A stretch of 64,000 bases of DNA from Kutzneria viridogrisea. Its GTDB lineage: Bacteria; Actinomycetota; Actinomycetes; Mycobacteriales; Pseudonocardiaceae. Of this stretch, positions 58,836 through 63,214 are shown piece by piece. Within the stretch, counting starts at the first letter, position 1, and each line of letters begins with the position of its first letter. A program made the translations under genes and the position numbers. The DNA lies in contig JACJID010000006.1 of the NCBI GenBank assembly GCA_014138725.1, forward strand, positions 494,001 through 558,000, in the 5' to 3' direction. A model generated the notes under the pieces. That model was not told the origin of the DNA. It saw nothing but the letters and a program-made list of their open reading frames with translations, and made no database searches.

Positions 58836-59123
58836 ATGAGCACGCCCGTGGAACAGGAGCGGACGCTGGGTGACCCGGTGAGCAGCCAGGACAAGCCCTG
58901 GCTCACGATCGTCTGGAACGACCCGGTGAACCTGATGTCCTACGTCACGTACGTGTTCCAGAAGGTCTTCGGTTACAGCCGGGACCAGGCGACCAAGCTG
59001 ATGCTCGACGTCCACCACAAGGGCAGGGCGATCGTGTCGTCCGGATCGAAGGAGAAGGTCGAGGCGGACGTGGCGAAACTCCATGCGGCCGGGCTGTGGG
59101 CGACCATGCAGCACGACTCATGA
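58836..59123 (+). CDS. clpS: ATP-dependent Clp protease adaptor ClpS (first copy)
   Basis: 95 residues: a 20-residue flexible N-terminus, then the ClpS core [20 protein letters not shown], the helix [16 protein letters not shown] and [18 protein letters not shown]. The conserved ND pair and the His equivalent to E. coli ClpS His66 (VHHKG) are kept, so it should bind N-degron substrates and deliver them to ClpC or ClpA. Its stop overlaps the DUF2017 gene (ATGA). A second, altered ClpS is encoded at 60678. Confidence 0.93.
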
Positions 59124-59677
59124 ACGGCTGGCAGCGGTGCGGCGAGGAGGTGCTGGCCTCGCTGGACCGGCAGGAGGCGGCCATCCTGCGCGGACTGGTC
59201 GGCCAGGTGCTGGACATGCTGGAGGCCAGGGCGGCGGAGGCCCCCGAGGACGAGCTCGCCGAGCTGACCGGCATCCAGGTGGGGTCCTCGCAGGCGCCGG
59301 ACGACCCGATCCTGGGCCGGTTGCTGCCCGACTTCCACCGGCTCGACGACGACGCGCCCGCCAAGGCCGACCAGGACTCCGCCGCCGCCCTGCGCTCGCT
59401 GCACGAGCCCGGGCTGCTGCGGTCCAAGTCGCTGGTGGCCGAGACGGTGCTGAGCACCTGCCCGCCCGAGGGCGGGGACGTGGTGCTGAGCCTGGCGCAG
59501 GCCGAGGCCTGGCTGTCGGCGATCAACGACGTGCGGCTGGCCCTGGGCACCGCGCTGGACGTCACCGAGGACATGCCCGACGAGCTGCCCGAGGACGACC
59601 CGCGCTCCTCACACCTGGGCGTCTACCACTGGCTGACCTGGGTCCAGGAGAGCCTGGTCAGCGCGGTGCTCACGTGA
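59120..59677 (+). CDS. DUF2017 protein (first copy)
   Basis: 185 residues. An acidic helical protein with [15 protein letters not shown] at the start, then [15 protein letters not shown], and C-terminal [18 protein letters not shown] and [15 protein letters not shown]. It is the family member that follows clpS in nearly all actinomycetes; its function is unassigned, but the constant neighbour suggests that it acts with ClpS. A paralogue follows the second clpS at 60908. Confidence 0.88.
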
Positions 59678-60681
59678 GCGTTCCCGCGCCAGGGGCGAAC
59701 TCGATCACCGACGTGCCCGGGGTGCTGGTCGGTCACCACCAGCGGCTGGAGCCCGGCTGGGCCACCGGCACGACCGTGGTGCTGGTGCCGCACGGCGCGG
59801 TGGCCGGGGTGGACCAGCGCGGCGGGGCGCCCGGCACGCGGGAGACCGACCTGCTCGCGCCCTCCCGGCTGGTGCAGCGGGTGCAGGCGATCTGCCTGAC
59901 CGGGGGCAGCGCGTACGGGCTGGCCGCCGCCGACGGGGTGATGCGCTGGCTGGCCGAGCGCGGTCACGGCGTGGCCGTCGGGCAGCTGCCGCACGAGGTG
60001 GTGCCGATCGTGCCCACCGCGGTGCTGTTCGACCTCAAGCTGAGCGACTGGGGCAACCGGCCGGATCCCGGGTTCGGCTACGCGGCCTGCGAGGCGGCCA
60101 GTGCCGACCCGGTGGTGCAGGGCTGCGTCGGTGCCGGGACGGGGGCGCGTGCGGGCTCGCTCAAGGGCGGCATCGGCACGGCGAGCACCCTCGTGAACGG
60201 GCACACCGTGGGCGCCGTGGTGGCGCTGAACGCGGCGGGTGAGGCCGTGAACCTGGCGACCGGGTTGCCCTGGGCGGTGGACCACGAGGTCGGCGGGGAG
60301 TTCGGGCTGACCACGCCCGGGGCGCCCGCGGTGGCACTGGCGCCCAAGGTGTCCCCGCTCAACACCACGATCGGCGTGGTGGCCACCGACGCGGCACTGG
60401 ACAAGGCCGAGTGCGGGCGCATGGCCACGATCTCCCACGACGGCATGGCCAGGGCGATCCGGCCCGCGCACGGCATGTTCGACGGGGACACGATCTTCTC
60501 CCTGGCCACCGGCGCCCGCGAGCTGGGCCCGGCGCGGCCAGTGGAGCTCAACGCCCTGTACGAGGCCGCGGCCGAGGTGCTCGCGCGGGCCGTGGTGCAC
60601 GCACTGCTGGCCGCTTCGACCGTCGGCGGGGTACCGGCCTACCGTGATGCCTGGCCCGACGCGGTGGGGAGGAAGCGGTGA
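59674..60681 (+). CDS. P1-family (DmpA/BapA-like) aminopeptidase
   Basis: 335 residues from GTG overlapping the DUF2017 stop. An N-terminal nucleophile hydrolase of the DmpA family: ITDVPGVLVGHHQ at the start, CLTGGSAYGLAAADGVMRWL in the middle, GGIGTAS, and the self-cleavage site at SPLNTTIGVVATDA, where the Thr becomes the nucleophile. It removes N-terminal residues or beta-peptides. Position between two ClpS/DUF2017 pairs fits a role in N-terminal peptide turnover. Confidence 0.92.
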   Translation: MSVPAPGANSITDVPGVLVGHHQRLEPGWATGTTVVLVPHGAVAGVDQRGGAPGTRETDLLAPSRLVQRVQAICLTGGSAYGLAAADGVMRWLAERGHGVAVGQLPHEVVPIVPTAVLFDLKLSDWGNRPDPGFGYAACEAASADPVVQGCVGAGTGARAGSLKGGIGTASTLVNGHTVGAVVALNAAGEAVNLATGLPWAVDHEVGGEFGLTTPGAPAVALAPKVSPLNTTIGVVATDAALDKAECGRMATISHDGMARAIRPAHGMFDGDTIFSLATGARELGPARPVELNALYEAAAEVLARAVVHALLAASTVGGVPAYRDAWPDAVGRKR

Positions 60682-60911
60682 CCTGGCGGGTGCTGGTGCA
60701 CAACGACGCGATCAACTCGTTCGCCACCGTGGCGTACGCGCTGGTCCGCGTGCTGTCCATGCCGGTGGAACACGCGGCCGCGGCCGCGCGGCAGGCGTAC
60801 GAGTCGGGAGTTGCCGAGATCGGCGCCTACACCGAGCGGGAGCCCGCCGAGGCGATCACCGCGCGGTTGCAGGCCTTCGGGCTGAACGCGTCGATCGAGG
60901 TGGCGGCATGA
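60678..60911 (+). CDS. ClpS-like adaptor (second copy) lacking the conserved histidine
   Basis: 77 residues: only the ClpS core, without the flexible N-terminal extension. WRVLVHNDAINSFATVAYAL matches the ND-x-x-N segment, followed by the helix and AYESGVAEIG, AEAITARLQAFGLNASIEV. The His of the N-degron pocket (VHHKG in the first copy) is Tyr here (AYESG). It may bind different N-termini or have lost them. ATG overlaps the peptidase stop, and its own stop overlaps the next ATG, so it is fully embedded in the operon. ClpS-fold identity is from motif reading, not from a search. Confidence 0.83.
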   Translation: MTWRVLVHNDAINSFATVAYALVRVLSMPVEHAAAAARQAYESGVAEIGAYTEREPAEAITARLQAFGLNASIEVAA

Positions 60912-61423
60912 CCGGGGACATCGAGCTGTTCGTGGACGAGGAGACCGTCTACCTCAAGCTCTCCGAGCAGGCCAGGCAGACCTTGCGCGAGGCGGTCGGC
61001 TGGCTGCTGCACTACGTGGGGCCCTGGCCGGAGGGGCAGAAGTTCCTGGAGCGGCTGCGCTACCCCGGCCAGCGCATGTCCATGCTCGCCAGGATGTTCC
61101 CGCAGGCCTACCCGTACGGGCCGACCGCGGCCGAGTTCCACCAGCGCTTCGGCGAGCTGCTGCGGTTCAACCTGGTCTCCGCAGCGCAGCGCCTGCTGGC
61201 CTCGCTGGACGGGCCCGGGCCGGTGCGCTGCGACCTGGACGCGGTGGACGAGTGGGTCATGGTGCTCGGCCAGACCCGGCTGGTCTACGGGCCCAGGGAG
61301 CGCCCGGCCGTCGAGGTGGCCGCCTGGCTGACTCGCGTCCAGCAGGAACTGGTGCTCGCCGTGCAGCCGGAACTGGCGACCTGGTCTTTCCCAACCACCG
61401 GGACGACTTCCGCCACCCCTTAG
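60908..61423 (+). CDS. DUF2017 paralogue (second copy)
   Basis: 171 residues. It matches the protein at 59120 in order: SEQARQTLREAVGWLLHYV with [32 protein letters not shown] with [31 protein letters not shown] with [19 protein letters not shown]; and AAWLTRVQQELVLAV with [15 protein letters not shown]. It therefore belongs to DUF2017, although diverged. It is coupled to the second ClpS (ATGA) as the first copy is to the first ClpS. This repeats the pair exactly and supports a ClpS-DUF2017 partnership. Confidence 0.78.
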   Translation: MTGDIELFVDEETVYLKLSEQARQTLREAVGWLLHYVGPWPEGQKFLERLRYPGQRMSMLARMFPQAYPYGPTAAEFHQRFGELLRFNLVSAAQRLLASLDGPGPVRCDLDAVDEWVMVLGQTRLVYGPRERPAVEVAAWLTRVQQELVLAVQPELATWSFPTTGTTSATP

Positions 61424-61424
61424 G

Positions 61425-61889
61425 ATGGTGCACGTGCTGGTGATCCGTCGTGACCTGGTCGAGGCGATGGTCGCGCACGCCCGTCGTGACCACCCCGACG
61501 AGGCGTGCGGGGTGATCGCGGGCCCGGCCGCCACCGGCCGCCCCGAGCGCTTCGTGCCGATGCTCAACGCGGCCCGGTCCCCGACCTTCTACGAGTTCGA
61601 GTCCGGCGACCTGCTCAGGCTCTACCGCGAGATGGACGCCAACGACGAGGTGCCGGTGGTCGTCTACCACTCGCACACCGCCACCGAGGCGTACCCCTCG
61701 CGCACCGACGTGTCCTACGCGGGTGAGCCCGAGGCGCACTACGTGCTGGTGTCCACCCGTGACCCCGAGGAGCACGAGCTGCGCTCCTACCGGATCGTCG
61801 ACGGCGAGGTCACCGAGGAGCCCGTGCAGGTCGTCGAGTCGTACATGTTCTCCCACACCGGCGCCGACGACGTGCCCGACGCGGGCTGA
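61425..61889 (+). CDS. mec: JAMM/Mov34 metalloprotease (Mec-type, CysO-cysteine peptidase)
   Basis: 154 residues. JAMM metal site: Glu in HPDEACGVIAG, then VVVYHSHTATEAYPSRTD (H-x-H-x10-D), the zinc-binding signature of deubiquitinase-like peptidases. In mycobacteria Mec releases cysteine from the CysO carrier; the cysO and cysM genes follow here in the same order. Its start lies one base after the DUF2017-like stop. Confidence 0.93.
   Translation: MVHVLVIRRDLVEAMVAHARRDHPDEACGVIAGPAATGRPERFVPMLNAARSPTFYEFESGDLLRLYREMDANDEVPVVVYHSHTATEAYPSRTDVSYAGEPEAHYVLVSTRDPEEHELRSYRIVDGEVTEEPVQVVESYMFSHTGADDVPDAG

Positions 61890-61974: not shown

Positions 61975-63212
<1,238 letters not shown>

Positions 63213-63214
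<2 letters not shown>

Follow-up and report, generated by a model that had tools for sequence, protein, structure and literature searches.

The 64,000-nucleotide window analysed here, from Kutzneria viridogrisea (contig JACJID010000006.1, positions 494,001 to 558,000), contains an operon in which the genes for the adaptor ClpS and for AosR, a protein of the DUF2017 family, are each present twice. The second copies, clpS2 and aosR2, lie between a P1 peptidase gene and the sulfur genes mec, cysO and cysM. Comparison of sequences gives good support to the view that ClpS2 and AosR2 form one functional unit, and we put at about 0.5 the probability that they are a diversified, cassette-like second ClpS-AosR pair acting as a bipartite adaptor. 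Their near-constant adjacency, and their occurrence as one protein in three genomes, suggest that AosR2 works together with ClpS2. The extra pair, carried by some soil actinobacteria, changes fast; it is relocated in some genomes and fused in those three. The initial annotation had proposed from the window that ClpS and DUF2017 act as a pair; this idea is right, and operon co-occurrence, eight other sites, concordant trees and the fusions make it stronger than the window alone could show.

The distribution of the second pair was surveyed in 150 Pseudonocardiaceae genomes (ClpS search at E 0.01; Pfam cut-offs of 23 bits for ClpS, PF02617, and 25 bits for DUF2017, PF09438). ClpS was matched in 149 of them, as was DUF2017, and at least two ClpS matches were found in 43. 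Counting copies within Pfam's reach, which more divergent ones would escape, 42 of the 150 genomes carry the second pair, 28 in the operon and 14 at eight other sites. Operon structure was examined at 61 loci: the window and 60 others, from 42 of the 43 multi-ClpS genomes (the 43rd is that of the window) and 18 of the remaining 107. ClpS2 stands after the P1 gene in 28 of these loci; according to a profile iterated from the window's AosR2, AosR2 follows it at every one of the 28, and the 33 loci that lack ClpS2 have no AosR2 either (Fisher p 5e-18, with related loci treated as independent). When the AosR2 profile of alignment A1 was run on all 6364 reading frames, 31 matches scored 120-206 bits; another 55, which we take to be AosR1, scored 23-38 bits. 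At other loci the gap between P1 and ClpS2 reaches about 1.2 kb, or that between AosR2 and mec 4.6 kb; at L050 the contig stops before mec, and three Kutzneria loci hold a tandem of two extra modules.

Among 294 genomes of a class sample outside the family (ClpS search at E 0.001), two ClpS matches were found in one, a metagenome-assembled genome of 68% completeness. The highest score of the AosR2 profile outside the family was 77.6 bits, compared to 176.6 for the window; this profile was trained on Pseudonocardiaceae, of which the draw included just three genomes. The second pair, carried by 42 of 150 genomes in the family itself, is not standard in actinomycetes, and the earlier statement that mycobacteria lack it fits the class survey.

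An extra ClpS match outside the operon was seen in 15 genomes, and in 14 of them AosR2 adjoins it on the same strand; in the fifteenth the match is weak and lies inside a RecQ-like frame. Pfam detects DUF2017 beside 9 of the 14 relocated ClpS2. The genes flanking the relocated pairs fall into eight groups, which pairwise share at most one protein. At one site (L162:8495-9495), genes for a MOSC-domain protein and a peptide methionine sulfoxide reductase are found directly upstream of the pair, on the same strand.

In one genome, G157, ClpS2 and AosR2 make up a single open frame of 251 aa. A search of 24 genomes of the same genus gave a match in 13 and the fusion in three (G157, G554 and G568); the G554 and G568 fusions are 70% and 68% identical to that of G157 and contain no stop. 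In each fusion the ClpS part exceeds the Pfam cut-off. Pfam picks up the AosR part in a single one (18.6 bits, below the cut-off), but with the AosR2 profile this part scores 38-50 bits. These fusions bear on an alternative scenario, in which AosR2 is the cargo: ClpS2 would hand it to ClpC1P, the pair would be a self-contained regulator with its level governed by proteolysis, and each pocket would co-evolve with its own AosR2. Such an arrangement would account for the pairing, for the correlated divergence of the two proteins (see below) and for the differences in the ClpS2 pocket between modules. However, a single chain that holds both adaptor and cargo, as in the fusions, is easier to reconcile with a stable complex than with destruction of the partner, and the window's ClpS2 is without the N-terminal extension that, as described in PMC12493166, helps delivery in Escherichia coli. 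We therefore consider the cargo scenario unlikely, and favour a co-adaptor because natural fusions exist.

In trees of 104 ClpS and 104 AosR sequences, copies 2 and 3 form one clade, with a support of 100 in each. The trees hold family sequences only; L164 and L172 were excluded as broken or too divergent, and the further genomes from the search of G157's genus were not added. With this sampling, long-branch effects are possible. Path lengths average 0.35 in ClpS1 and 2.83 in ClpS2/3, and 0.75 in AosR1 against 3.62, about five times as much, in AosR2/3; overall, mean tree distances of copies 2/3 are 5-8 times those of copy 1, a ratio that mixes rate with the age of the copies. Between the window and five congeners, identity is 86-88% for ClpS1 and 30-41% for ClpS2, and 78-79% for AosR1 and 31-41% for AosR2. 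The ratio of non-synonymous to synonymous substitution rates (dN/dS, NG86) stays below 1 in all 17 AosR2 pairs and in 16 of the 17 close ClpS2 pairs (dS is 0.016 in the remaining one); for each protein, copy 2 has the higher ratio in all 10 comparisons made with copy 1 from the same genomes. Both ClpS2 and AosR2 are therefore retained but fast-changing. Across the 31 operon modules, ClpS2 and AosR2 distances remain correlated once the AosR1 distance is accounted for (partial r 0.61, reached in none of 5000 permutations). The nearest neighbour is the same in both trees for 26 of 43 modules, and 19 of 41 clades are common to them, three of these within Kutzneria copies.

The genes in the window are arranged as follows:

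58836-59123, + strand: clpS1, a canonical actinobacterial ClpS (Pfam ClpS 85.3 bits; NCBIfam ClpS 153.6, cut-off 86)
59120-59677, + strand: aosR1, DUF2017 (Pfam DUF2017 177.9 bits; NCBIfam AosR 226.3, below the equivalog cut-off of 260)
59674-60681, + strand: P1 (S58) peptidase, GTG start as read from the sequence (Pfam Peptidase_S58 239.7 bits, 59677-60678)
60678-60911, + strand: clpS2, a ClpS core of 77 aa, GTG start (Pfam ClpS 34.9 bits; alignments)
60908-61423, + strand: aosR2, a second DUF2017/AosR-like protein of 171 aa (Pfam DUF2017 51.6 bits; profile of relatives)
61425-61889, + strand: mec, JAB family, the first downstream sulfur gene (Pfam Prok-JAB 102.2 bits)
61975-62253, + strand: cysO, ThiS-like sulfur carrier (Pfam ThiS 65.9 bits)
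62264-63214, + strand: cysM, PLP-dependent cysteine synthase (Pfam PALP 241.7 bits)

The duplicated module, its gene coordinates and its junctions agree with those first annotated: clpS1/aosR1, aosR1/P1, P1/clpS2 and clpS2/aosR2 are all joined by 4-bp ATGA/GTGA overlaps, and 1 bp separates aosR2 from mec. The clpS1/aosR1 overlap is present at 53 of the 61 operon loci. The family assignment of the second pair, made from the letters alone, holds as well, with both proteins above the Pfam gathering cut-offs; against the NCBIfam equivalog models, ClpS2 scores 30.9 bits (cut-off 86) and AosR2 gave no match to AosR (NF051854, cut-off 260 bits). The K. viridogrisea genome has two ClpS and three DUF2017 matches over the cut-off, and on its contig C8 an open frame of 1025 aa, in which two Clp_N domains are matched, is presumably ClpC. 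The third DUF2017 gene, an orphan on another contig (C9:208036-208548; L004:1471-2040, L175; 50.4 bits), stands without ClpS beside a Methyltransf_19 gene, and DUF2017 genes apart from the operon and from ClpS are found in other Kutzneria and in other genera as well.

Pocket residues were compared in the numbering of E. coli ClpS, which draws in part on the residue lists in PMC12493166. Places 34, 35, 40 and 66 are N, D, M and H in all 61 ClpS1. Among 43 ClpS2, Asp35 is present in every one, N34 in 16, M40 in 5 and H66 in 20, and the full set in a single copy. The window's ClpS2 has N, D, F and Y: the alignment gives the ND pair as N9 D10 and a Tyr (Tyr41) at the His66 place, as initially read, with Glu58 at the Glu82 place; relative to ClpS1, further changes in the pocket are Met40 to Phe, Met62 to Ala and Val65 to Ala. 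The Tyr occurs in no other of the 43 copies, and with His kept in 20 it does not define the pair; the argument from Tyr fails. The new specificity that the initial annotation proposed is plausible as a general idea, since the pocket varies.

That annotation also suggested a cargo: as an N-degron adaptor, ClpS2 would use its changed pocket to recognise new or modified N-termini, such as those of P1-peptidase products. The ClpS family match with a changed pocket is in line with this, and a precedent is offered by Leptospira ClpS1, in which Asp replaces the pocket His (described in PMC12493166). Nevertheless, the pocket differs from module to module, with its Tyr confined to the window, and in 14 genomes the pair is located away from the operon that holds P1; nothing was found to indicate that the cargo consists of P1-peptidase products or of proteins with modified N-termini. 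The Leu/Phe-transferase (PF03588) also had no match in the K. viridogrisea genome and was found in 6 of the 150 family genomes, though ClpS1 keeps its four pocket residues throughout. This explanation appears very unlikely to us.

The place of Glu82 is Glu in all 61 ClpS1 and all 43 ClpS2, and that of Gly69 is kept in 41 of the ClpS2. In E. coli, ClpS Glu82 and Lys84 are described as forming salt bridges to ClpA, including Glu82-Arg86, and the N-terminal extension of ClpS as engaging the pore (PMC12493166). The window's ClpS2 has two residues ahead of the core and no alternative ATG or GTG start; counted from the nearest start, the median is 4 residues in the 31 operon ClpS2/3 versus 20 in ClpS1. 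In the bipartite adaptor that we propose, the second ClpS-AosR copy, set before the CysO/CysM sulfur genes in the family, would have ClpS2 as its ClpC-facing half. ClpS2 may dock through the retained Glu82, the residue with which E. coli ClpS binds the N-domain of its Clp unfoldase. Its N-degron pocket varies, and its N-terminal extension is nearly absent, certainly so in the window copy. AosR2 would be the partner that supplies or gates the cargo, as proposed for ClpF with plant ClpS1. We infer a physical ClpS2-AosR2 complex, its docking on ClpC1, selection of cargo by AosR2 and a proteolytic function.

Known systems resemble this arrangement in part. Like ClpS, the N-degron adaptor of ClpAP/ClpCP, ClpS2 matches the Pfam family and has the invariant Asp35 and Glu82 and the near-invariant Gly69; it differs in its variable N34, M40 and H66, the lack of Lys84, the two pre-core residues of the window copy and the AosR2 next to it. 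AosR2 shares with AosR (Rv1332 of Mycobacterium tuberculosis) the DUF2017 match and the same place before mec-cysO-cysM, whereas the window copy has no NCBIfam AosR match and one Cys. A precedent for ClpS with a dedicated partner is the binary adaptor ClpS1-ClpF of plant chloroplasts, as presented in PMC7966870, which likewise joins a small ClpS core to a partner protein; ClpF is described there with UVR and YccV domains rather than DUF2017, and complex formation and delivery are presumed for ClpS2-AosR2. Leptospira (PMC12493166) and cyanobacteria (PMC7966870), too, are described as having paired ClpS1/ClpS2 paralogues, among them a second ClpS of altered pocket or specificity, but the available portions of these two sources mention no DUF2017-like partner.

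NCBIfam names the DUF2017 family AosR, an oxidative stress transcriptional regulator. In M. tuberculosis, AosR is said, in work of Khan from 2021, to be a redox factor acting with SigH. A feature described for AosR (NF051854) is an intramolecular disulfide. The window's AosR2 has one Cys; of the 61 AosR1, 20 have none and 37 have one, and such a disulfide switch is therefore not general in the family. Another explanation of the pair is that ClpS2 acts outside proteolysis, as a small subunit of an AosR-type regulator. This would suit both the family label and the published role of AosR as a transcription factor, and the decay of the ClpS2 pocket, its short N-terminus and its lack of Lys84 point the same way; we nevertheless think a regulator subunit improbable.

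Several observations weigh against the bipartite adaptor. Lys84 is found in no ClpS2, its place being T, V, M, I, F or L in all 43 (it is Asp in 60 of 61 ClpS1), and docking of ClpS2 may therefore differ; the role of Glu82 could be structural rather than one of docking, and M. tuberculosis ClpS has been modelled on ClpC1 through Asp35, on another face (as given in PMC6274998). AosR has been described as a transcription factor, and Khan's 2021 work on it as a redox regulator of M. tuberculosis is cited in PMC10501769. As 15 of the 31 operon ClpS2/3 could start more than 12 residues upstream, the short N-terminus is uncertain for ClpS2/3 as a whole. The fusions lie within a single genus. In one genome, G562, there is no ClpS but only a truncated AosR frame. 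One of the 14 relocated modules, L164, appears broken, and so do the ClpS of L186 and of the first copy of L185, which are split over frames. In G111, G129 and G145 a third ClpS match is added to the operon's two (L066, L070, L074), making a lone extra ClpS possible, and G085 has a third, weak match of 19.7 bits. DUF2017 orphans without ClpS exist, and shared descent inflates both the co-occurrence and the tree correlation.

A wider proposal, which we offer tentatively and hold to be somewhat doubtful, is that DUF2017/AosR proteins may generally be ClpS co-adaptors: ClpS-AosR would be a bacterial binary adaptor of ClpC1P, the transcriptional effects reported for AosR would arise via regulated proteolysis, and the second modules of the family would be cassettes that confer specificity and undergo duplication, exchange, relocation and fusion as whole units. 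The natural fusion and the paired, fast-diverging copies tie ClpS to AosR, so far described as a transcription factor, and whether AosR acts with ClpS on ClpC1 is now a directly testable question. Pseudonocardiaceae are rich in antibiotic producers. The actinomycete ClpS is described as a putative N-degron adaptor whose role is unclear (PMC5515868), and ClpC1 has been called a promising antibacterial target (PMC10433963). A diversified adaptor set at ClpC1 in this family would be of interest to several fields on account of both the target and the producers.

Clp_N domains are numerous in Kutzneria, with 8 to 15 matches per genome (7 in the one of 4.7 Mb), for example at C2:941501-941848 in K. 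viridogrisea. Several lie in frames of about 250 aa that have two Clp_N domains and are too short for an ATPase; it is possible that these short Clp_N-only proteins are adaptor-binding decoys. A gene for a Clp_N protein of roughly 235 aa also lies near the relocated ClpS2-AosR2 in two genomes that belong to one genus (L164:9845-10552 and L161:5962-6666, the Pfam match being for L164 only).
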